Shown piece after piece: positions 5,640-21,290 of a stretch of 64,000 nucleotides of DNA. The first letter of the stretch is position 1, and each line of letters opens with the position of its first letter. Position numbers and translations under genes: made by a program. The stretch lies in contig OY727095.1 of assembly GCA_963402885.1 (NCBI GenBank), positions 29,207,001 to 29,271,000 of the forward strand. The letters are read 5' to 3'. The notes under the pieces were generated by a model. The model had not been told where the DNA came from and ran no database searches. It was given only the letters and a program-made list of their open reading frames with translations. This DNA is from Antedon bifida (taxonomy: Eukaryota; Echinodermata; Crinoidea; Comatulida; Antedonidae).

Positions 5640-5945
5640 TATTGTATTCACCCTGTTTAATAAAGTGCACCAGATACTCACCTATCTGGGAACTTCTTCC
5701 CGCTTGGGGCAAATCCAATTGATATATATATAAATCCTCTGGTAATACTGCTAAAAGCCGTAATATCCTTCTAACCACGGCAAACTCCGTGGCCAGCTAA
5801 CTGCCCCGATTCTTGGTCTGCTCCAACCGTCTGCGCATGACGCCCAGCCGTCCATACGTCACAAGCACTAGAACCAGGCGCCCGCAGACGGTTGGTAGGT
5901 TCGGGCCATTCATTCAGCGGCCACCCCCTTACGGTCGATACTACA
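5640..5945 (-). repeat. Gypsy-type LTR fragment (copy 1, 3'-truncated)
   Basis: On the minus strand it begins TGTAGTATCGACCG at 5945, the same boundary as the LTR at 16795. It matches that LTR until about 5640, where it breaks into the SGNH region. It contains the TATA-like run TTTATATATATATC. It differs by a 5-bp insertion near 5800 and lacks the last ~100 bp. It is the leading part of an LTR from the same family as the element at 13-17 kb. Confidence 0.8.
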
Positions 5946-5973
5946 CTCCCCCCGGTTTTGAAAAAGAGGTAGT

Positions 5974-6073
5974 CCCCGGGGCAGAGCCATATATAGAGAG
6001 AGTTACGGCATTGCGTTCACGGATTTTAGAAAGTCACGTGGTGTGCACGCCGGCCATGTTTGTGTCCAACTAT
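5974..6073 (+). repeat. ~100-bp repeat with TATA-like core (inverted partner at 10389-10466)
   Basis: It contains GCAGAGCCATATATAGAG and ends GGCCATGTTTGTGTCCAAC. Both blocks recur on the opposite strand at 10391-10466. The two copies flank the LINE and the foldback element in inverted orientation. The shared CATATATAGAGAG looks like a core promoter, but no transcript can be proven from sequence. Confidence 0.6.
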
Positions 6074-6425: not shown

Positions 6426-9344
6426 TTACCATTTTTGGAATAATCCGTGATTAATAATAAACGTTTTTGAACGGTTAGTTTTAACTCTAGGGATACAGAA
6501 CTCACGGAGTCTTCTAAGATTATAAGCAGCAGAAGGAGCCTCCGGTAACAAATGATTCAATCTGTGACTGGGGTCTTTGATTTTAACAAAAAAATCCTTG
6601 CACAGTCGAACACGGCGGTCTTCTAAGGTAGAAAAACCAAGGAAGCTGCGGGCATCGGAATAAGTAGCATGCGGAAAAATACATTTAAAGGCCCTTCTCT
6701 GAATTTGTTCAAGTTGTTGATTCTGTTGCTTCGTAATATTTGATCCCCAAACTGGGGCCGCATATTCTAATATAGGTCTAATGATACTAGTATAAAATTG
6801 GACAAGTGCGGGGGCATCCAGGCCTGCCCTCCGCACCTGTTTGAGAAAGTACATTCTAGAATTACATTTACTAATCATTTGATCAATATGAGGTTGCCAT
6901 GACAAATTATGAGAAATAATTACACCAAGAAGTTTAAATTCGTCAACACGTTCCAGATTACAATCTCCAACATGGAGTGGCTCAAAAGCAGTCTTTGACC
7001 TTTTACAACTAATTCTCATCTCTTTCGTTTTCTTAATATTAAGGTACATATTGTTATCCTTAGCCCACTGGACAGTTTCGTCAAGAGTGGTTTGAAGTAC
7101 AGTTGCCCCATCGTTGCCGACGCGTTCATGGATGGAGGTGTCGTCCATGTATTTCATGCACGGCACCCCATCCAGAAGATCGTCGACAAAGATGATAAAC
7201 AACATGGGCCCCAACCAGGATCCTTGGGGGATACCACCCTTAACGACTGTCCAAGGGGACAATTCATCGCCTAGTTTAACACGTTGTTTTCTATCACATA
7301 GAAAAGCATAGATCCAAGAGATTAGATGGTCTTCGACCCCTAAATTATACAACTTATCAATTAATATATTATGGTCAATTAAATCATAAGCCTTTTTGAA
7401 ATCAAGCAATAATAATCTCATTTCATCTCCTTGGTCAGTAGCATTAAAGCATTCGGTTAACAAATGTATAAGAGCGTCAGTGGTAGACACACCCTTAGAG
7501 CAACCAAATTGATTCAACTTGATTTTATCTTTAATTTGGACCCAAATCATTTCCCCTACGATCCCTTCAATAACTTTCATGGTGGTGGAAGTCAGCGAAA
7601 TAGGACGCAAGTCATTCTCAAGAACCTTAGGTGGGTTAACCTTTGGAATGGGGATTATATCGGCTGACTTCCAAAGCATGGGGAGAACCCCTTCCCTTAA
7701 ACTGGAGTTAACTATTGCACTTATTGGCTTGGAAAGGACATTGGCAAAATCACGTAGTACCCACGGAGGGATTCCGTCCGGGCCTGGGGCTTTATTACAT
7801 TTCACAAGTTTAAGCTTAGACTCAATTGTCTCTGGCGTGATAATTAAATGGGGTGGTACTACAGTGTTACAATCATTGGTTTTTGGTTCAAGAGGTTTGA
7901 ACTCAGAAGTCAGGGACTGGAAAAAACCACTAATTTTCGTGGTAAGATCGTATACGTTCCCGTTACATAATTCATTAGCCATAGTTTTAAAGTACTTAGT
8001 ACCCTTTCCGAGATTAAGAAATTGTTTAATACCCCTCCACCAAGATTTAGAATCGGACGAGAATAACTGGGCAATACTATTACGATAAAAATCACCTCTC
8101 AAAGATTTAGCCATTCGGTTAGATACGTTTCTAAGTTTCTTATATTCGGCAGACATGGGGTCAATTGCAAAAGCTGCTTGCCGTCTAGAAACGATACCTT
8201 TAAACGCATTATTTACCCATGGCTTATCTTTAAGAAGTCTTTTAATCGTTACTTGGGGGAAGTGTAAATTTAAGAGTTCAGAAATGTTCTTATGATACAG
8301 TTCAAACTGGTTACAACATCCATCCATTCGATATAGATCTTGCCATCTAATGTTATTAATGTCGCGTTCGAAGTTTTCCTTGGCACCCGGTTTACAGCTA
8401 CGTTTTGTATGGTAAGCGAAGACGTTAGGCGATTTAAATGTTCCTACGATTGGGGTGCATACGATGACGTTGTGATCAGACAGTCCTAAAGGTGATTCTT
8501 TAGTAGGTGCATTAAAAACATCGCTCATATTAGTATATATTAAATCAAGTGATGCGCGATCTCTAGTTGATACTTTAACGATCTGTTTTAAGGGATACTT
8601 AACAATAAGGTTGTCTCTCATTCGGTTGAAGTCTCCTGTGACGATTATTCCTGATTCCGGATGTTTACTACAAATATAATCTAAACTCTGTGTAATGTGA
8701 GACGCCATTTCCCAATCATTATTTACAGAACTCTCCGGGTGATAGATAAGGCCGTAGGAGATGTTCGAATATTGTCGCGGCAAACGTTTTGGCCGGGTTG
8801 TTATCCACACACTTTCCAGTGATTCGTTATTAAGTTCAGACCAAACTCGATAAGATAGGTCTTCACGAACATACATGATGATACCTCCACCGCTGCGATT
8901 TTGCCTATCACGTCGCACCATCGAGTATCCCTCTAACTCTATCAACTTGTCAGGAAACGCGGGATTTAAGTGAGTCTCAGTAATTGCAATCACGACAGGT
9001 TTAGATTTCCTAACGCGTGTAGCCAGTTCATCCATTTTATTATTTAGAGATCGAGCATTTGTCATAAATAAAGAGGGAAGAGTCCATTTCCCATTAGAGA
9101 GTTCAACTAGATTATCTTGCTTAATCGTTCTACATTGACTTTTCGACGATCGGTGTTCCCCGTTTCTAGTTCTACGTGGTGTAATTCTAACCTTTATTTC
9201 TCTCTGTTTTCTTTTTCCGGCACGACATCCGCGGGGCTTGGTTGATGCTATTCCAAGCTCATTGATTCTCATAAAAACATCTTTGGTGGGAACTGCTAAG
9301 TTCAGTTGTCCAATTCTATAAAACTCGCTTCTAGTGAGACACAT
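6426..9344 (-). CDS. Non-LTR retrotransposon ORF2: endonuclease + reverse transcriptase (972 aa, intact)
   Basis: This is an uninterrupted APE-type LINE polyprotein. The N-terminus is a short basic region. Residues about 90-300 form the endonuclease/exonuclease/phosphatase fold, with TNARSLNNK, catalytic Glu in ITETHL (about residue 124), GDFN (about 235) and LSDHNV (about 290). The reverse transcriptase spans about 500-780, with LRPISLTS, FKKAYDLIDH, GGIPQGSWLGP and the active-site YMDD (about residue 732). A typical C-terminal region with LEQIQRRAFK follows. It nicks target DNA and primes reverse transcription from its own RNA. The architecture and microsatellite tail suggest the CR1/Jockey group; the exact clade needs a tree. 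No ORF1 was found upstream. The unbroken frame suggests recent activity. Confidence 0.95.
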   Translation of the reverse strand: MCLTRSEFYRIGQLNLAVPTKDVFMRINELGIASTKPRGCRAGKRKQREIKVRITPRRTRNGEHRSSKSQCRTIKQDNLVELSNGKWTLPSLFMTNARSLNNKMDELATRVRKSKPVVIAITETHLNPAFPDKLIELEGYSMVRRDRQNRSGGGIIMYVREDLSYRVWSELNNESLESVWITTRPKRLPRQYSNISYGLIYHPESSVNNDWEMASHITQSLDYICSKHPESGIIVTGDFNRMRDNLIVKYPLKQIVKVSTRDRASLDLIYTNMSDVFNAPTKESPLGLSDHNVIVCTPIVGTFKSPNVFAYHTKRSCKPGAKENFERDINNIRWQDLYRMDGCCNQFELYHKNISELLNLHFPQVTIKRLLKDKPWVNNAFKGIVSRRQAAFAIDPMSAEYKKLRNVSNRMAKSLRGDFYRNSIAQLFSSDSKSWWRGIKQFLNLGKGTKYFKTMANELCNGNVYDLTTKISGFFQSLTSEFKPLEPKTNDCNTVVPPHLIITPETIESKLKLVKCNKAPGPDGIPPWVLRDFANVLSKPISAIVNSSLREGVLPMLWKSADIIPIPKVNPPKVLENDLRPISLTSTTMKVIEGIVGEMIWVQIKDKIKLNQFGCSKGVSTTDALIHLLTECFNATDQGDEMRLLLLDFKKAYDLIDHNILIDKLYNLGVEDHLISWIYAFLCDRKQRVKLGDELSPWTVVKGGIPQGSWLGPMLFIIFVDDLLDGVPCMKYMDDTSIHERVGNDGATVLQTTLDETVQWAKDNNMYLNIKKTKEMRISCKRSKTAFEPLHVGDCNLERVDEFKLLGVIISHNLSWQPHIDQMISKCNSRMYFLKQVRRAGLDAPALVQFYTSIIRPILEYAAPVWGSNITKQQNQQLEQIQRRAFKCIFPHATYSDARSFLGFSTLEDRRVRLCKDFFVKIKDPSHRLNHLLPEAPSAAYNLRRLREFCIPRVKTNRSKTFIINHGLFQKW

Positions 9345-9966
9345 GTTGATAAACGCTATGTCGACTCAAAATTCCGTACCACAAATAATATCAATCAACG
9401 GAAAAAGACTGCAGTATAATCCAAAGAAACACACCAAGATTAATACAGTACTAATAATACAGACGATTCACCAAACACAGTCACGAAAACAATCACCAAA
9501 AAACACCGTACCGGGAACACTGACTACAATAGACTGGATACAGACAGTTCAGCACCGCATAATATAAACAGCAGATCCGCTCCGACATGCAAATTAGATG
9601 TTGCTGAATTACAATCGCTCTGGAATGTTGGTTACGCAATACCTCAGGCGAGTCGATGAGTGAACAGCTTAGGCCGAGTATGTGAATTTAGCTGGAACAA
9701 TACGGTACCGAGAACTGTTCTATTGTCCCCTGCTTTGCTGTTGAGCGGAGCGAGTCAGGGCTAGGTACCGGCTCGGGATAATTACACCAAAACGCCAATA
9801 ATAATTCAAAATTAACAACAATGGTACGCCACTATAAGAAAACAGGTAACACAGAAAAATCAACGCATATAAATTCAGAGTGGAAACACAATTCTAGAGG
9901 AAAACAAAACTTTCCTCAGCTGCCCGAGTTGCCACACACTCAGCGCGTCAATACATATGTGTATGT
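9345..9966 (-). other. LINE 5' flank, no recognisable ORF1
   Basis: The segment upstream of the LINE start contains no convincing coding frame on the minus strand. The plus-strand ORFs here are short and compositionally unremarkable. It probably holds the LINE 5'UTR or remains of a truncated ORF1, joined to the foldback element at about 9967. Confidence 0.4.
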
Positions 9967-10388: not shown

Positions 10389-10466
10389 GAATAGTTGGAC
10401 ACAAACATGGCTTCTAATCCATTCGAAGTCGTAACTCTCTCTATATATGGCTCTGCCCCGGGGTCA
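10389..10466 (-). repeat. inverted partner of the 5974-6073 repeat
   Basis: On the minus strand it has GCAGAGCCATATATAGAG and then GCCATGTTTGTGTCCAAC, like the copy at 5974-6073, with a shorter divergent middle. After the shared end both copies continue with a CCTATG-like sequence into different mobile elements. Confidence 0.6.
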
Positions 10467-10670
10467 CCTGGCCAGCGTTGCAGCCCAGTCCCTGAGACTG
10501 GGTTCAATGAATCGCTAACTGGTGATCCGAAACGTAGCACCCGGCCGTGGGCCTGGTGCAAATTACAACTAAACGAGCTTCTGTTAACTGAACTAAAAAT
10601 AACCGTACTCTTCTTTTACTTTTATTAATAAACCAACAAAAACACTTCTGGGCCCCTTGGCGGAGCAAGA

Positions 10671-11190
10671 CTATTCCGGGATCAGATCCCGGCCATTCTT
10701 CCAGGTGAGGTCCAGGACCTCACTGGCCTCCATCCCCGTAACCTTCCCCAGGGCTTCGGCGGCGAAGCCGATGAAGTAGGGAGAGCCTACCCGGTGGCCC
10801 GCCGGACGAAAGTGAGGGGCGTCCGTCTCCAGTAGGACCCGGCGCTCCGACTGGTACATGAGGTATCTGCAGGCCTCCTGCACAGCTGGGCACGCTCGCC
10901 CTACCCCCAAATTGAAACTGAAATAGGTCATTGGGAAGAATCTCAGGAATTCCTCCACAATGAATACCGATGACGAGAAACTGTGCAAAATCAGTTTCTG
11001 TCCACGGGGTACCCCCACCAGCCGAAGAAGGTCCAGCCCCCGGAGGTAGCATTCCTCCCCCGTTGGGTCAGTCGCCGCACCCCGCAGGTGCAGGGTCAGC
11101 ACGTGATGACGCTGGGGGCAGAAACATTCCCGCAAGATCCGCTCCAGGAGCCGATCTTGTCGGGGCCAGTCGGTGATGGAACGGTTTGGG
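10671..11190 (-). pseudogene. TatD-family nuclease, C-terminal part (retroelement cargo)
   Basis: The minus strand encodes the C-terminal half of a TatD metal-dependent nuclease barrel. It starts at NRSITDWPRQ and includes the LTLHLRG histidine, the ILHSFSS segment (canonical HCFSG) and LLETDAPHF, the E-T-D metal-binding block, before the stop at 10671. The N-terminal half is on the opposite strand at 12590-13122. The first ~205 bp here (11190-10984) are also present there, inverted. Flipping 11190-12928 would place both halves in line on the minus strand. Related TATDN2-like domains are multiplied in marine-animal genomes; linking them to this LTR family is my inference from adjacency. Confidence 0.75.
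10984..11190. repeat. ~200-bp inverted repeat, left arm (right arm 12928-13124)
   Basis: This stretch appears identical, in reverse complement, to about 12928-13124; I compared base by base and saw no difference. Both encode the same internal TatD segment. The arms bound the 11191-12927 segment carrying the integrase end, PHD finger and TatD N-terminus, so recombination between them could invert it. Confidence 0.85.
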
Positions 11191-11194
11191 GGGG

Positions 11195-11850
11195 GGGGGA
11201 ATTGCAAGGAGATGGGCCGGATCCGGGGGTGGGGGTTTATGTCTCGGAGCTGGTCAACACCATCCGAGATGCACATGAGGTAGCCCGCACCACTCTCCGG
11301 CAAGCCCAGCGGCGTATGAAGAGGGACTATGACCGTCGGGTACTGAAACGTTCCTATGGGTTGGGGGACCGGGTGTATGCCTTGGATGACAGCACGCCCA
11401 AGGGCAAGAGTAAAAAGTTGTGTCCTCCATGGAAAGGACCGGCGGTTATCGTGGGGGTCCTGACTCCCTCACTTTTCCGGGTTCAGTTCCGGAACAAAGT
11501 TATGGTGCTAAATCACGATAAACTGAAGCCTTGCAGAGACAAGTTGCTACCCAAGTGGCTTCAGACCTTCCAGTTGCCCACTGCGTCAGCGAGTGGGGAC
11601 CGGGCAGACACCACCACGGGCGGCGAGTTGTATTGTTTTTGCCGACGGCCCTGGGGTGGGGCTTTTATGATCCAATGTGATTATTGTGACATCTGGTACC
11701 ACGGGGTGTGCAGGGAGATGTAAAATAAAATTTTACATCTCCCTGGGGTGTGTGTCAATATTTCGCAGCTAGATGCGCTCAATATTGACCGTTACAAATG
11801 TGCCGCTTGCCGAGAGCCAGCTATAGTCTCGGCGGTGCCTACTATCTAAT
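11195..11850 (+). pseudogene. Gypsy integrase C-terminal region followed by PHD finger
   Basis: The plus strand encodes the tail of a Ty3/Gypsy integrase. A helical segment (TLRQAQRRMKRDYDRR) is followed by a small beta-barrel (GDRVYALD, WKGPAVIVGVLTPSLFRVQ) and NHDKLKPC. This continues in frame into a C4HC3 PHD finger: CFC, CDYC, WYHGVC, then CAAC after an interruption. The PHD is broken by a 34-bp palindrome with flanking GGGGTGTG duplications (11703-11752), which adds stop codons. PHD fingers read histone H3 tails, so a role in targeting integration to chromatin is plausible but inferred. The catalytic integrase core and the reverse transcriptase are absent from the window. A G-run at about 11195 marks the junction with antisense TatD sequence. 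Confidence 0.75.
11711..11744. mobile_element. 34-bp palindromic insertion in PHD finger with 8-bp TSD
   Basis: The insert is AGGGAGATGTAAAAT, a 3-nt spacer (AAA) and its exact reverse complement, preceded by C. Identical 8-bp copies GGGGTGTG flank it at 11703-11710 and 11745-11752. The CAGGG-type end and 8-bp duplication recall hAT transposons; a 7-bp duplication is also possible because of sequence overlap. Insert plus one duplication is 42 bp, so the frame is kept but stops are introduced. A second copy lies at 19109-19142. Confidence 0.8.
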
Positions 11851-11901
11851 AATCAATTCAATTTTAATTGCTTGTATTTTTCTATCGTTTCAGAAATAAT
11901 A

Positions 11902-13122
11902 ATGAGTGACCCAAAACCAGAGGGGAAGACGGGCCGAGCCGATGATGCTTCGCTTTCCAGTGACCCGGGCACGAGGGAGGCGCCAGTGGAGGACCGAGGT
12001 GCTCCTAGCCGAGTGGTGGTGGTCATGGACGAAGAACCAGCACCATCGACCGAGGGGGTGTCGTGCAGCTTTCCTGGATGCGATGCTACGGGTATTCGTC
12101 ATCTAAGAGCACATATGCAGGCCCGGCATTTTCCACCTTGTTTCCGGCCACAATCCCGGAGTACGGGGCGCCGTGCGCAAGTTCAGGCCCAAGCCCTGAG
12201 CGAGCTGGCGCAACTTATTGTCCGACCTGGTGGACGACAAGGACCACACGATTTGTTGAGCAGCCTGCAAGAAATGAAACTTCTTCCCATGGATGTGTCC
12301 TGGGAAGCCTTGGACCCTAAAACCCAGGGAGCAATGCTCAAACTGAACGGGGTTTTTAAGGGGAGGGAGGAAGACCTGTGTACACGGGTTGATAATCACC
12401 CCGCTTTCCTAATACATTACCGAGCACTGGCCGCCATGGCCAAACTCGTGGGGGTGGTTATGTTTATGGCAGTTGCTGAACGGGCGGAGGCGAAGGTCCC
12501 AGTGCCTTCCCAGACGCCGGCTGACAGAAGGGGGAGGAAGCGGCGTGCGCCGACGGAGGGCTCTCGGGGTCCTGGCCCTGTGCCGGAAACCCCGCCTCCG
12601 CCGTGCGCTTTTGACGCACATTTTCACCCGGACCGTTTATTTTCGGCCCTAGGGCTGCCCCCAATCTATCAGATACGCCGTGCGAGGGATGCAGACCCTG
12701 TAAAGCCAGGAGACCCAAGGGTCACCGTTATAGGGGCAATCGCGGTTTTCCGCCCACTTATCTATCCCTCAGGGAGATAAACCTGATACAGTCGCCGCCG
12801 TACAACCATGTTTCCATTGGGCTGCACCCCACGCGCATGGTGTCGGCGCGGGAGTTTGCTACTTTTCGGGGGTTGGCCCAGAACCTGAGTGTTCGGGCGC
12901 TGGGAGAGGTGGGTCTGGACCACAACCGTTCCATCACCGACTGGCCCCGACAAGATCGGCTCCTGGAGCGGATCTTGCGGGAATGTTTCTGCCCCCAGCG
13001 TCATCACGTGCTGACCCTGCACCTGCGGGGTGCGGCGACTGACCCAACGGGGGAGGAATGCTACCTCCGGGGGCTGGACCTTCTTCGGCTGGTGGGGGTA
13101 CCCCGTGGACAGAAACTGATTT
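11902..13122 (+). pseudogene. C2H2-like plus TatD nuclease, N-terminal part (frameshifted)
   Basis: The best start is the ATG at 11902, preceded by AATAATA; an earlier in-frame ATG at 11872 also exists. Features in order: an acidic low-complexity region, a C2H2-like knuckle (CSFPGCDATGIRHLRAHMQARH), an alpha-helical region (about residues 95-200), a Pro/Arg-rich linker, then the TatD barrel start FDAHFHPDRL with the HxH metal site. A 1-nt frameshift near 12765 moves the frame to NLIQSPPYNHVSIGLHP. The glutamate block ALGEVGLD follows at about 12895-12918. The barrel is cut at 13122, where an LTR begins. The missing C-terminus lies inverted at 10671-11190. All TatD metal ligands survive across the two pieces. 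Confidence 0.75.
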
Positions 13123-13124
13123 TG
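12928..13124. repeat. ~200-bp inverted repeat, right arm
   Basis: This is the reverse complement of 10984-11190 (see left arm). It ends where LTR copy 2 begins. Confidence 0.85.
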
Positions 13125-13517
13125 CATAATATGCGGAACAAGTGTGTCTTTTATCGCACACACAAATTCCTTAGGAAAACAAGCAAAAATACAGGAATAA
13201 TTATCCTTTTTGCTCGCAGCGCCAATATTGTATTCACCCTGTTTAATAAAGTGCACCAGATACTCACCTATCTGGGAACTTCTTCCCGCTTGGGGCAAAT
13301 CCAATTGATATATATATAAATCCTCTGGTAATACTGCTAAAAGCCGTAATATCCTTCTAACCACGGCAAACTCCGTGGCTAACTGCCCCGATTCTTGGTC
13401 TGCTCCAACCGTCTGCGCATGACGCCCAGCCGTCCATACGTCACAAGCACTAGAACCAGGCGCCCGCAGACGGTTGGTAGGTTCGGGCCATTCATTCAGC
13501 GGCCACCCCCTTACGGC
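13123..13517 (-). repeat. Gypsy LTR copy 2 (probable 3' LTR, lacks first ~12 bp)
   Basis: On the minus strand it matches the LTR at 16795-16391 from CCGTAAGGGGG to the end TTATGCA. It lies directly downstream of the protease frame, which reads into it. The first ~12 bp including the TG start are missing, as expected if a deletion removed reverse transcriptase/integrase plus the extreme LTR start. It contains TTTATATATATATC (TATA-like) about 200 bp in. Confidence 0.75.
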
Positions 13518-14489
13518 TAACATTCCTTCCAGGTGTTGTGGTACCCCACCCTGGTCCGTGGAGGATTTCTCTGAAGCGTCAACCCCTACGGTGGACACCG
13601 ATCCCCCTTGAGAAGCATGATTACCCTCCCACTCAGTGGCATTCCCCACAACCTCTCCCTGTTTCAGTGTTACATATCTGCCCGTAAGATTCGCCACGCA
13701 AACTTTGGGAACAGTCCCACCCCGATGAATAGTGGCTGGAATTAAAACTTTCCCCTGATTATCGGGCTCAATGAAATAATCGGGGAGATGCTCCCCTGTT
13801 ACATCTAACCGGCACAGTATGTATCCCGCCGAAAACGGAGGAAGCACCCTGCGCTTGCCAACCGTCACCCGGGTAACCCTAGGGTTAACCTCCCCCACCT
13901 CTTTGCGAAGAGAAAGTGTACTTGTTCCCACAGATAGTAATAATTTCCCACAATCGATAAGAGCTCGATTGGGTATCAAAAAGTCCCCTCCCAGCAACAT
14001 ATCGTCATTAATCGGCGCCACGTACATATACTCAGTGTACACCTCGGAACCTAATGCGAACGTGACTGGGCCTACCCGGTATCCCGGCATAGAAGTCCCC
14101 CTACCTGCTAATTTAAAGGAAAGCTCTGCAATTATTGGTGGGGCAGGGTCCAGCTTGGCAAATACCCGGTCTGAAAGAATTGTATAATCAGCAGCGGTAT
14201 CTACTACAGCTACCGTGCGAAGCCCATTTACAAACACCATGGCATGCAATGCATTCGCTGACTCCACTCTATTTACCACTATGCATGGTTCCCTTTCCTT
14301 TAAGCTAACTATATCCACGGACACCGCCAGAGGATCCCCACCCGGGTACCCCTGTCCCTCTTCCTTTTTAGCGCACGAGCCTTCAGAACGCTGGCAGTCG
14401 GTGGTCAGGCCCCGACCCCCGACCCCTATTCGTTTAAAGGATCCTCCTGTTCCCCTACCTGCCTGGCTTGCCGCGCTAATTTCGGACAT
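13518..14489 (-). pseudogene. Gypsy-type aspartic protease (pol N-terminal part)
   Basis: A retropepsin-like fold is readable from about residue 70 of the open frame. VAVVDTAADYTILS carries the catalytic Asp in a DTA context instead of DTG/DSG, and MLLGGDFLIPN is the usual hydrophobic GxDFL block. The frame is entered most naturally by -1 frameshifting at 14438-14432 from the gag frame, rather than at the ATG at 14489. Downstream the frame runs into LTR copy 2 and then antisense TatD sequence, so everything after about 13518 is not genuine pol. Reverse transcriptase, RNase H and integrase are missing on this strand. It would process the Gag-Pol precursor. Confidence 0.75.
14397..14438 (-). 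promoter_or_regulatory. predicted -1 ribosomal frameshift signal between gag and protease
   Basis: On the minus strand the heptamer TTTAAAC (14438-14432) is phased T TTA AAC in the zinc-knuckle frame. That frame stops at TAG only 3 nt later (14428-14426). An 8-nt spacer is followed by a GC-rich hairpin: GTCGG (14423-14419) pairs with CCGAC (14401-14397), and GGTC (14417-14414) pairs with GACC (14406-14403) around a 7-nt loop. Slipping back one base enters the protease frame exactly. Heptamer, phase, spacer and stem all fit the established -1 frameshift model. Confidence 0.75.
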
Positions 14490-16305
14490 TCCCTTTTGAA
14501 ATGACCCACCTCATTACATTTAAAGCAGCGGTCCCAAAAAGTACCAATTTCCCCACCCCCGTGTTACGGCACCCAATACAGAACTTCATAGCTGAATGTC
14601 TCTGTATCTATTCATTGGAAAGTGGCTTGAAGGCTTTCCTAGTTAGGGTTAATACCCGATCGGCCCATTCCCCTACGGTTTCTGTCTCATGTTGGGATGC
14701 CGTCTCTAGCTTGGCCTGGAGGACCTCAGGAAGTTCATCCTCCGTAAACCGTTGGTCAAAGGCATGAATTATGTCCCAAAAGGAAATGTCCCCATCCATG
14801 GTTACTAAATTGGTGTAGAGGTCCGCCGCAGCCCCCTCCACGCACCAACAAAACGCCTCCTTCATTTCCCAGGGCGAAAGATGATGCTCTTCCGAAAAAG
14901 CCCTAAATCTACGTTTAAAGAAAGCCCAATTATCCTTCCCTCTATATACCAGGCTTCTCGGGACATCCTTAGATCGGAAAGGTTCCCATCTTGGCCTACC
15001 CCCTGACCTATTACCCCTAGTTCCGGCCCTTGGACCTCTATCCGTCCGGTCCTGGTATAATACTGGCCTCTCTTCGTATCTACCCCAGGGTTGTGGAACG
15101 ACCCATGAATAATCCCAGTCCTGACGACCTGGTCCCTCCCGTGGACGACCGGATGACCATCCATAAGGAGACTCGGACCCCTGGTATCCGTCCCACCTCC
15201 CGGATCGGTCCGAAGTCCAATCCGATTCCTGATGAGTAGGCCTGTGTGAGGGTTTTGGTCTTTCATCCCTTGGACGATATTCAGGACGGTCCCAAGTACC
15301 ATCCCCAGGGAACCCGTTCCCTGATCTATCTCCACCCCATGAGTTCCCCTCGCTCGTATTTGCCCATTGTCGGCCTGTACCAACTTCGTAATTTTGAGAT
15401 TCCCTCTGTGGAGCCGGATATCCCCCTTTAGATACCGGAGTCCCATATCCTTTATTTCCGCTAAACTCTTTCCCCCTTCCACATGAGGATATTTCCCCAG
15501 CCTTGTACCGGAGAGTCGCTGCGTAGTCTTCTGCGGAACCCACGTGAGCCTCCTCCCCACTAGAGTAACCCTCTTCCTGGTTCTCTGGAGAAAGAGAGAA
15601 TTCCCTAAAGGACATAAACTTAAGCTTTTGCTCAGTTTTCCGGGAACGAGTATCGTCATTCCCGGGACCCACCGCCTTCTTTAGGGCACTTTTAATTGTA
15701 TCGGCGCCCTTACTAACCCCAGCAGACCCAGACGATGCCGACCCCTGCCGCAGGACCATCGGAGACATAACACCTAATCTATGGTGAGCCTTATCAAATT
15801 CTACTCCCTTTACCCCAGAGCCTCCCCTTTCAGCTCCACCCTCAGATTCTAAATGTTGGGCTGGGGAATGAACACTAAAATCATTCCGATCATCTACCAA
15901 CGAAGACACAGAACCCAACATTCGACGAAAATCCTCGGGTGACAACCTAGGGTTAGGTGAAAAATCGAATCTGCTTAAGAATTCTGGCTTCTTACTCAGA
16001 CCCTTAATAGAACTTAAATCTATTACGGATGAAATATTACCCAATCTGGTCCTAAGGGACAAAATTTCGTCCGCCCGAACCACCCCTATTCCCGGAATAT
16101 CGCATAATTGCTCGAGTGTACAGAAATTCACTCGAATGCGATTCCCGTCTATGGGCATGGTAATCCAGACGCTACTATTCACTAAAGAAACCCCGTACTT
16201 TATTATCACCAAACCGGGAATTTTGAACCCCGCCACTGGAGATCGATTCTCGATTTCCAAAAGCGAAATAAATATTAATTTATAACAATCCCAATAGACA
16301 CACAA
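14426..16305 (-). pseudogene. Gypsy-type Gag with helix-hairpin-helix and CCHC knuckle (broken)
   Basis: The open frame 16305-14608 encodes a Gag-like protein. The more likely start is the internal ATG before PIDGNRIRVNFC (about 16158). Residues about 65-110 resemble a ComEA-type helix-hairpin-helix (LCDIPGIGVVRADEIL). A long Arg/Gly/Pro-rich central region follows (about 250-440). The C-terminal retrotransposon-gag helices (FFKRRFRAFSEEH, WCVEGAAADLY) end at a TAG stop (14610-14608). A CCHC zinc knuckle, CFKCNEVGHFKREC, lies further on at about 14527-14485 in a different frame. So there is one nonsense codon and a frame change, probably in the G-rich tract near 14555-14570. It packages element RNA; this copy looks inactive. 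Confidence 0.8.
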
Positions 16306-16390
16306 ATATATGTATCCAATTAAGTAATACTAACCCACCGTACCGCAATAACGCGGCAAATGCTTTTCCTACCGACCTTGGAAACTAATT

Positions 16391-16795
16391 TGCATAATAT
16401 GCGGAACAAGTGTGTCTTTTATCGCACACACAAATTCCTTAGGAAAACAAGCAAAAATACAGGAATAATTATCCTTTTTGCTCGCAGCGCCAATATTGTA
16501 TTCACCCTGTTTAATAAAGTGCACCAGATACTCACCTATCTGGGAACTTCTTCCCGCTTGGGGCAAATCCAATTGATATATATATAAATCCTCTGGTAAT
16601 ACTGCTAAAAGCCGTAATATCCTTCTAACCACGGCAAACTCCGTGGCTAACTGCCCCGATTCTTGGTCTGCTCCAACCGTCTGCGCATGACGCCCAGCCG
16701 TCCATACGTCACAAGCACTAGAACCAGGCGCCCGCAGACGGTTGGTAGGTTCGGGCCATTCATTCAGCGGCCACCCCCTTACGGTCGATACTACA
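16391..16795 (-). repeat. Gypsy LTR copy 3 (5' LTR, ~405 bp)
   Basis: On the minus strand it runs from TGTAGTATCG (16795) to TTATGCA (16391), so it has TG...CA termini. It contains a TATA-like TTTATATATATATC and lies just upstream of gag. Copies 1 and 3 share the same first base, which defines the LTR start. I could not identify a primer-binding site with confidence in the following AATTAGTTTCCAAGG. Confidence 0.8.
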
Positions 16796-19108: not shown

Positions 19109-19142
19109 CAGGGAGATGTAAAATAAATTTTACATCTCCCTG
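19109..19142. mobile_element. 34-bp palindrome, second copy
   Basis: CAGGGAGATGTAAAAT, a 2-nt spacer and the exact reverse complement ending in CTCCCTG. It has the same arms as the palindrome at 11711-11744. No target duplication is visible; it abuts the 89-bp direct repeat of the following LTR remnant. Confidence 0.7.
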
Positions 19143-20701
19143 GTTCCAGTAGGCTTAGTGTCGATTGATATTATTTTGGTTTATTAAAAGTGTTCATATC
19201 TACGTGAAAGTGATTAGTCTTTATTGCCGTGGTGGCAGCGCATTACCCACTACCGCGAAATCGCTTCAACAAAAAGAAGACAGAGACTTTTCATACCTTT
19301 ACAAATCACTGAACATTTTTCGAGGCTCCCGGACTCGATCCCGAAGTCTAGCTCGCATAGGCTAGATAATCCGATATATCGATCGCACTCTGTCCTCAGC
19401 CGACACGTGAGTAAAGCCTTGCCTTGTTACGTTACCGTCAACTGCTCACAACATGGCTACTGCGAAAGCCCCAGAACAATGGCAACTTACCAAAAATGAA
19501 ACAGTTAACTCCTTTAAAAACTGGCGATATTATTTATTTTTTCTCTTGACGCTAATCTTTCACCATTCCTTGCTGACGCATTCACTTGGAAAATGAAAAC
19601 CGCAGGAAACCCCACAAGGGGAATACTTGACGATGAGGACACTGTCTCAGCCACATCGAGAAAAACCTCGCACCAAAAAAATATTCAACTGGAATATATG
19701 TTGAGCCAAATCGCCTACTTTTGTCCAGTTATATCCAGGAATACTATTATAAAGCGATCGACATCTCTTTCTGACATCTGGCAAAAAATTTGCCAGCATT
19801 TTGGTTTCCAGTCTTTGGGAGCGCACAACTTGGATCTCCCAAACATCACTACGCTACCAGCCAAAAAACCTCAGGCCGACTCCAAAGCATGTCCCACAGC
19901 TATTGTCAACAAAGCACACTGGCCACAGTATAACAATTTCTCCAAACAAATGGCTCCTAACCAAGCCTTTTGTGAATCGTGCATTATGTGCCAATCTTCT
20001 CAACGACCACACACTTCACACTCAACAAGTCAGTGCCGATTTCTTCCAGCAGCTGATAGAAATAGTCTCGGCAATTCACATTTCGTACTCGCAGGGAACG
20101 ACTATTTCACACTCCCTGACGACGCAGAGAACGACTATACTGCACTCCCTGACGAAGAACTTTGTATCGAAGACCTCACTCAAGGTCCACAACATGATCT
20201 GCCCACCGGCCTAATCGACAAACCAGCTTCAACCAGCCAAGTCAATGTTATTATTCAAGCACCATCTTTGAACACATCTTTTCATCATTTCCCAGTGAAG
20301 GCGACACTTGACATTGATGCCACTACCAATTTCATTCAAGCATCACTTAGTTTTTTTGATTTGCCTATGACACTAGCAACTCAGATTGCCCAATTCTCTA
20401 TACCATTGGACTTTTATGTCTGTGTTCCAGTTACTTGTCCACATTCTTTTATTTTGCTTTTATTGTGTTTTTTATTTTTTCAATTTTTGAAAGAAAGGTG
20501 GAAGGAAGTGGCGGTTGCGCCATCACACTCGCACGCCCTCGTGTGTTGTTGTTGCAGTGCGCCACCTTGCGCCCTATCGACCGACCTCGTGGTCGCCACA
20601 TTATGTGTTAGTTGGTTCCAGTAGACTTAGTGTCGATTGATATTATTTTGGTTTATTAAAAGTGTTCATATCTACGTGAAAGTGATTAGTCTTTATTGCC
20701 G
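19141..20701 (+). mobile_element. short LTR-retrotransposon remnant (89-bp direct repeats)
   Basis: Near-identical direct repeats of 89 bp (19141-19229 and 20613-20701) begin TGGTTCCAGTAG and end CTTTATTGCCG, with one visible mismatch. They enclose a gag-protease-like region and no reverse transcriptase or integrase. The true LTR may begin further upstream of the 3' copy (TGTGTTAGT at about 20603); the 5' copy is cut by the palindrome. This is an internally deleted, probably non-autonomous element. Confidence 0.65.
19453..20430 (+). pseudogene. Gag-protease remnant of the short LTR element
   Basis: Translation from the ATG at 19453 (MATAKAPEQWQLTKNE) shifts frame at a T-run near 19535-19542 into the long frame containing FTWKMKTAG and ISRNTIIKRSTSLSDIWQKI, a Gag helical signature seen in invertebrate LTR elements. 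A Cys/His cluster (CESCIMC...H...C) resembles a diverged zinc knuckle. VKATLDIDATTNFI near 20300-20340 aligns with the retropepsin active site but has DID where DTG/DSG is expected. A frameshift and a lost catalytic motif mark it as decayed. The hydrophobic tail encoded after about 20430 is probably 3' non-coding DNA. Confidence 0.6.
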
Positions 20702-20702
20702 C

Positions 20703-21290
20703 CGAGTAATATGTTTTGTGTGTGTGTTTTGTTTTGGTGTCTATCCTCGCTGTCAGAAGACTAACCAGGATGTTGCTATTAATCTACACAGATAGGTGCA
20801 TAAAAGATGCACGTCATTAGGCCTAATGTTATAGTTTTAAATTACAGTACAAGTCATATTTTGTGCGTGTGTTTAGTTTTGTTGTCTATCCTTGCTGTCA
20901 AAAGACTAACCAGGATGTTGCTACTAATCTACGCAGATAGGTGCATAAAAGATGTACGTCGTCATTAGGCCTAATTTTATAGTTTTAAATTAGGCCTACA
21001 GTACAAGTCATATTTTGTGTTTGTGTTTTGTTTTGGTGTCTATCCTCGCTGTCAAAAGACTAACCAGGATGATGCTATTAATATACACAGATAGGTGTAT
21101 AAAAGATGCACGTCATCATTAGGCCTATTTTATAGTTTTAAATTACAGTAGGCCTACAAGTCATATATTGTGTGTGTGTTTAGTTTTGTTGTCTATCCTT
21201 GCTGTCAAAAGACTAACCAGGATGTTGCTATTATCATACACAGTGAGGTGTATTAAAGATGTACGTCATCATTAGGCCTAAATTCTGAAC
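20703..21290 (+). repeat. four ~150-bp tandem repeats
   Basis: Units begin near 20707, 20858, 21008 and 21163. Each contains TGTGTTTTGTTTTGGTGTCTATCC (or a close variant), GACTAACCAGGATG, a CACAGATAGGTG-like block and a TTAGGCCTAA block. Divergence is modest. It starts immediately after the 3' direct repeat of the LTR remnant. No coding potential. Confidence 0.85.

Follow-up and report, generated by a model that had tools for sequence, protein, structure and literature searches.

A probable −1 frameshift signal at the gag–protease junction of a Ty3/Gypsy lineage in the crinoid Antedon bifida, preserved in a broken copy

Introduction

According to the parts of PMC5009743 used here, a 2003 survey found pol at −1 relative to gag in 28 of 51 animal LTR elements, many of them with classical slippery heptamers. 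The same parts count U_UUA_AAC as one of the heptamers most prone to shifting on mammalian cytoplasmic ribosomes, describe G_UU(A) of equine arteritis virus as a deviation from X_XX, and give the usual spacer range as 5–9 nt, into which many studied spacers fall. PEG10, a domesticated Ty3/Gypsy gene with a −1 frameshift and a pseudoknot, is likewise a case of Gypsy-derived gag/pro frameshifting (PMC5009743, in part).

The junction described here resembles the animal LTR retrotransposon sites of that source in its −1 relation, its classical heptamer at the end of gag, its 3' structure and its Gag/Gag-Pol logic. U_UUA_AAC of the coronaviral and retroviral studies (PMC5009743, same parts) is the heptamer of groups A, E, F and I of the copies defined below, and group B shows the same kind of X_XX deviation as equine arteritis virus. 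Unlike the surveyed sites, as far as the source presents them, the stem is here backed by compensatory changes that distinguish subfamilies within a single genome, and the distance from heptamer to stop is 0 or 3 nt.

Results

A heptamer, a stop and a stem-loop at the end of gag

An earlier note, made from the sequence alone, had proposed a −1 frameshift cassette linking gag to protease in a Gypsy-type element within a 64,000-nt stretch of the Antedon bifida genome (contig OY727095.1, 29,207,001 to 29,271,000; hereafter the window). All of its parts were recovered (Table 1). The minus strand at 14440-14426 reads CC TTTAAAC GAA TAG, which the CCHC knuckle frame divides as CCT TTA AAC GAA TAG, so that the heptamer is in the correct phase for slippage. 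The zero-frame TAG (14428-14426) follows 3 nt past the heptamer as described, and spacer and hairpin agree exactly with the proposal (8 nt, then nine pairs with one G/A mismatch and a 7-nt loop). A slip by −1 does enter the protease frame, which is open from 14510 and carries an aspartic protease domain, with Pfam matches to gag-asp_proteas (E=8.3e-5) and Asp_protease_2 (E=9.6e-5) that both fall under the Pfam cut-offs. The site thus combines what is expected of a −1 frameshift site: an in-phase X_XXY_YYZ, a downstream extension in −1 and a 3' structure within 5–9 nt. A second TTTAAAC in the window gag is in the wrong phase. A search of 14300-14500 against Rfam gave no family at its gathering score (DUF805b sub-threshold, 15.2 vs 35.6 bits).

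Table 1. Features of the element copy in the window (positions of the window)
Feature	Position	Strand	Remark
Slippery heptamer T_TTA_AAC	14432..14438	-	NNNAAAC in 18/18 visible junctions
Zero-frame (gag) stop TAG, 3 nt past heptamer	14426..14428	-	
8-nt spacer GAATAGGG	14424..14431	-	
Proposed stimulatory stem-loop	14397..14423	-	27 nt; covariation supports
Stem-loop arms, 10 positions each, 9 pairs, one G/A mismatch	14423-14414 + 14406-14397	-	loop 14413-14407
Gag CCHC zinc knuckle CFKCNEVGHFKREC, zero frame	14486..14527	-	zf-CCHC E=3.7e-8
Aspartic protease domain, -1 frame (open from 14510)	13977..14237	-	gag-asp_proteas, Asp_protease_2
Main gag open frame, stop to stop	14608..16329	-	ended early by stop 14610-14608
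HHH motif within gag	16143-15988	-	N-terminus of Gag
Capsid within gag	14853-14632	-	
Junction of 457-bp gag deletion vs full-length copies	14534..14536	-	2 bp common to both sides
5' LTR, inner end approximate	16495..16795	-	matches L070 from 1022; LTR length from measured relative
Second LTR-plus-leader fragment, abutting protease region directly	13112..13516	-	
Inverted piece: integrase C-terminal part, PHD finger, most of ORF3 (TatD-like)	11193..13126	+	
ORF3 3' part and tail, original orientation	10456..11186	-	203-bp inverted repeat with 11193..13126 piece
TatD ORF3, first piece	11827-13126	+	
TatD ORF3, second piece	11186-10674	-	
3' LTR fragment, set apart from rest by LINE-bearing DNA	5640..5981	-	

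The junction is conserved among diverged relatives

The genome searched comprises 315.6 Mb in 27 contigs, and all copies come from this one genome. The protease query gave 42 matches, 30 of which were taken up as loci; 28 of these were examined after the overlapping L020 and L033 had been dropped. The gag end is visible in 18 of the 28: group A (L009-L014, L009 being the window copy), B (L015, L016, L017, L025), C (L018, L019, L022, L023), E (L024), F (L026, L030) and I (L027), where these groups were set by inspection and not by a tree. Compared with that of the window, the protease is 98% identical in four close A copies and 84-89% identical in the broken C9 copy, which lies in two pieces (L014/L020); group B stands at 64-65%, group C at 59-62%, group E at 58%, group I at 40% and group F at 39%.

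All 18 junctions end gag with NNNAAAC: TTTAAAC in ten (groups A, E, F and I), GTTAAAC in four (B) and GTCAAAC in four (C). Between heptamer and gag stop lie 3 nt in A, B, E, F and I and none in C; spacers measure 5-8 nt in A, B, C, E and F and 4 in I. Among A, B, F and I the slip/stop stretch is conserved at 68-84% identity, against 20-52% for its flanks compared without gaps; comparisons that involve group C give lower values, 47-58%. The junction is out of view in L021, L028, L029, L031 and L032, and L029 keeps its knuckle with no such motif ahead of the protease.

The protease lies at −1 to the knuckle in 15 of the 18, and the pol frames of L070, L071 and L073, open over 1320-1415 aa, are likewise at −1. 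A single continuous gag–protease frame in other copies would have spoken against a frameshift signal, and it is not the rule. Knuckle and protease nominally share one frame in three broken copies (L014, L024, L030), and that frame is uninterrupted in L014 alone, owing to an indel of one nucleotide that lies between knuckle and heptamer; in L024 and L030 the gag stop is still in place, and more stops follow before the protease is reached. The expectation that heptamer and stem would be conserved or co-vary was likewise borne out, with AAAC in 18/18, the full TTTAAAC in 10/18 and a stem covarying in one register across three groups.

Two kinds of similar site were set aside. In L034-L038 an in-phase GGGAAAC occurs 102-120 nt ahead of the gag stop and the protease is also at −1; with this distance to the stop and proteases only 25-28% identical, they were kept apart as other Gypsy lineages. 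The heptamer of PEG10 is GGGAAAC, and in this PEG10 resembles the L034-L038 lineages and not the lineage of the window. A junction-like TCTAAAC in L057 was rejected because it sits upstream of the capsid match.

Covariation supports one stem register

Groups A, B and C could be read ungapped from the heptamer over 60 nt, at 43-52% identity. The stem of the earlier note falls on one diagonal in all three, with base i facing base 58-i. The pairs 16-42 to 23-35 form in 7/8 positions in A, 8/8 in B and 8/8 in C_C15, which makes 23 of 24 cells with a C row that is one choice of three (C_C13 7/8, C_C15b 6/8). Among 3400 possible 8-bp helices this stem is the joint best by cells paired, tied with itself slid by one pair, and the five helices with at least 21 cells paired all lie on its diagonal. 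Three pairs show double compensatory changes: 18-40 (C-G, T-A), 22-36 (G-C, T-A, A-T) and 23-35 (G-C, C-G, A-T). Within group A, L012 and L013 have G-T at 22-36 where the window has G-C. In groups F and I the 5' arm is shared, the loop is extended by 6 nt and there is one bulge; 8/8 pairs form in F_C8, 7/8 in I and 4/8 in F_C10, a decayed fragment. We treat this fit as weaker evidence, since the register was set from F's own fold.

The stimulator could be an H-type pseudoknot instead of a plain hairpin, a variant that is compatible with frameshifting and that we consider unlikely. In F the loop can pair with downstream sequence over 7 bp (p 0.020 and 0.023), and in C over 5-6 bp (p 0.040-0.093). 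For A (p 0.81-0.82), B (0.27-0.29), E (0.97) and I (0.87), shuffles pair as well as the real sequence. As a general feature of the family the pseudoknot is thus weakly supported, appearing only in C and F, and we did not retain it.

Overlapping proteins do not account for the stem

Gag-Pol might instead arise by splicing, internal initiation, re-initiation at pol or readthrough of the stop, with the nucleotide conservation reflecting overlapping proteins only. Both overlapping frames are indeed conserved at the site (Gag tail LN[ED], −1 peptide [FV]KR), which would by itself be enough to slow nucleotide change. Readthrough, however, leads into the wrong frame, the pol frame of group B opens just three codons ahead of the heptamer, and the conserved −1 peptide starts right at the heptamer. 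Moreover, protein conservation leaves the compensatory changes in the stem unexplained, and we therefore regard these routes as very improbable.

What the single sequence can and cannot tell

The earlier note had judged the coincidence of all parts unlikely by chance. This is true once relatives are compared, but it does not follow from the window sequence, because the hairpin there is no stabler than its dinucleotide shuffles: its fold energy is ordinary for its composition (z -0.15). In the 19 junction rows folded, z ranged from -0.29 to +0.10 in the six rows of group A, for which reason fold energy was ruled out as proof of the hairpin; it was -0.56 to -1.56 in B, -1.01 in E, -1.80 to -2.19 in C, -2.25 and -2.00 in F and -0.83 in I.

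A position-constrained test, with the stem starting 4-10 nt past the heptamer and 300 shuffles per row, was applied to 11 of the 19 rows, near-identical rows being omitted. A stem as good as that of the window at the right distance was found in 1% of 300 shuffles; the fractions were 0.010 and 0.007 in A, 0.007 twice in B, 0.017 in E, 0/300 in three rows of C and 0.003 in F_C8, and fell short of significance in I_C10 (0.110) and F_C10 (0.103).

In-phase canonical heptamers number 11 in 6120 codons (the six gag and pol open frames of L070, L071 and L073), and two of the 11 are the junction sites of A and I. The junction is the sole such heptamer in the 787 codons of the A gag frame and one of two in the I gag. 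The B gag has its canonical heptamer, a GGGAAAC, away from the junction, since GTTAAAC at the B junction is non-canonical in the narrow sense. Chance alone, bringing together an in-phase heptamer and foldable sequence in a G-rich region of a decaying element, would agree with the ordinary hairpin energy and the further in-phase heptamers; it is hardly credible, as divergent groups keep the gag-end motif and the stem register and the covariation contradicts it. It is the comparison of relatives that is decisive for the frameshift signal, not single-sequence statistics.

The window copy is broken

Mapped on the full-length layout, the window copy runs from the 5' LTR into gag (16795-14535), then, past a deletion, from knuckle and protease to 13516. 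The gag frame stops ahead of the knuckle because of this 457-bp deletion, whose length is not a multiple of three; the earlier note does not mention the interruption. Because gag is broken upstream, the cassette is unusable in this copy. The RT/RNase H part of L070 is without a match in the window. With most of pol gone or inverted the copy is dead; the cassette is preserved yet disconnected, and other places in the genome carry copies whose frames are open.

Several other repeats were seen in the window. ORF3 sequence forms a perfect 203-bp inverted repeat (10984-11186 / 12924-13126), which records the rearrangement by which a part of the element came to be inverted. A LINE with a 979-aa open frame carrying endonuclease and reverse transcriptase domains (6426-9365, minus strand) sits between the element body and the 3' LTR piece. 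Further away, direct repeats of 89 bp, 99% identical (19141-19229 / 20613-20701), flank a 368-aa open frame without a Pfam match (19518-20624), and a 153-bp tandem array (20714-21281) adjoins them.

A Gypsy element with a PHD finger and a TatD-type third ORF

The assignment to the Gypsy type is supported by the domain order PR-RT-RH-IN in the pol of L070, L071 and L073; this order is not present in the window copy. Full-length relatives in groups A and B have Pol open frames of 1413-1415 aa with the order PR-RT-RH-IN-PHD, and a Gag made of an N-terminal helix-hairpin-helix (HHH), a capsid domain and one CCHC knuckle. The HHH motif scores above the Pfam cut-off in A (E=4e-7) and below it in B (2e-5), C (4e-4) and F (0.003); none is listed by Pfam for group I. 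One measured A copy is about 9.1 kb long, with LTRs of about 300 bp, read as TG...TA, that differ by one mismatch, and a 4-bp flanking repeat, CCTG, so that LTRs and a target site duplication were both found in this one relative. Troyka LTR elements are defined by 5'-CG..CG-3' ends and a 3-bp duplication (PMC12440569, in the part used); the LTR reading and 4-bp repeat of this one copy do not fit that definition.

Pol closes, at the end of the integrase, with a PHD finger (L070 pol aa 1357-1401; window 11193-11723, plus strand) that is closest in the PDB to those of PHF8, BPTF and PHF2. This finger could be a chromatin-targeting module, to which the chromodomain of chromoviruses is comparable. 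No relatives of the Pol end were matched in viral contigs.

The third ORF of these full-length relatives (L070:7983-9599, plus strand) encodes a TatD-type nuclease domain (Pfam E=4e-22). Its best solved chain is 1j6o, with which the motifs GE-GLD, H-R, H-FS and ETD-P align, and an HxH start (DAHFHPD) is also present; we take all of these to be the catalytic motifs. TatD matches adjoin group A and group B copies and, in group C, the C13 copy; none among the matches listed lies beside the group I copy.

In titles and the beginnings of abstracts of the open-access literature we found no precedent for Gypsy elements that carry a TatD ORF or a PHD finger. One paper returned by this search (PMC3286476) concerns, in the part used, a nearby host gene.

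Discussion

We propose that the cassette in the window is very probably the fossil of a −1 programmed frameshift signal of a Ty3/Gypsy lineage, by which full-length relatives would make a minor Gag-Pol product. Frameshifting of this kind between gag and pol is a standard, well-known mechanism, and its conservation across distant relatives is clear here. The cassette linking gag to protease that the earlier note had read from one copy stands on a conserved gag-end motif, the −1 relation in 15 of 18 junctions and a covarying stem; phase, frames, conservation and covariation were all observed directly.

In the full-length relatives, most ribosomes would pass the heptamer and end at the TAG, yielding Gag. 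Some would pause at the stem-loop while T_TTA_AAC fills their P and A sites, and the Leu and Asn tRNAs would slip in tandem one base back, from TTA AAC to TTT AAA. Now in the −1 frame, the shifted ribosomes would go on to translate protease, RT, RNase H, integrase and PHD finger, giving the minor Gag-Pol. We infer that slippage occurs, and likewise its efficiency and the ratio of Gag to Gag-Pol.

Group C has the junction G_UCA_AAC_UAG in L018, L019, L022 and L023 and in a fifth locus, L049, with the strong stem conserved. It would have lost most P-site re-pairing, and the P-site tRNA could hardly re-pair. In E. coli and wheat germ systems, the E. coli tRNA-Asn promoted only double slippage (PMC5009743, in the parts used), and group C may therefore be weakly active, active by way of the adjacent stop codon, or carry a decayed heptamer. 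G_UCA_AAC_UAG is absent among the deviations that those parts of PMC5009743 list. None of the group C loci fetched has full-length gag and pol together.

Taken as a whole, the copies may represent a Gypsy lineage that is undescribed as far as our literature search extends, a reading we offer tentatively and hold to be doubtful in its full form. Its Pol would end in a histone-reader-like PHD finger and its third ORF encode a TatD nuclease with catalytic motifs. The slip site would vary by branch as T_TTA_AAC, G_TTA_AAC or, immediately ahead of the UAG, G_TCA_AAC while AAAC and the covarying stem stay constant, and one branch would shift with essentially Asn-tRNA re-pairing alone, at the stop codon.

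The comparison illustrates that a guess about a recoding signal made from a single sequence can be settled by diverged copies within one genome. The lineage also offers naturally occurring slip-site variants, T_TTA, G_TTA and G_TCA before AAC on one conserved stem, with which one can ask how much loss of P-site re-pairing is tolerated. A Pol that ends in a PHD finger, together with a TatD third ORF, may interest work on retroelement targeting and on captured nucleases.
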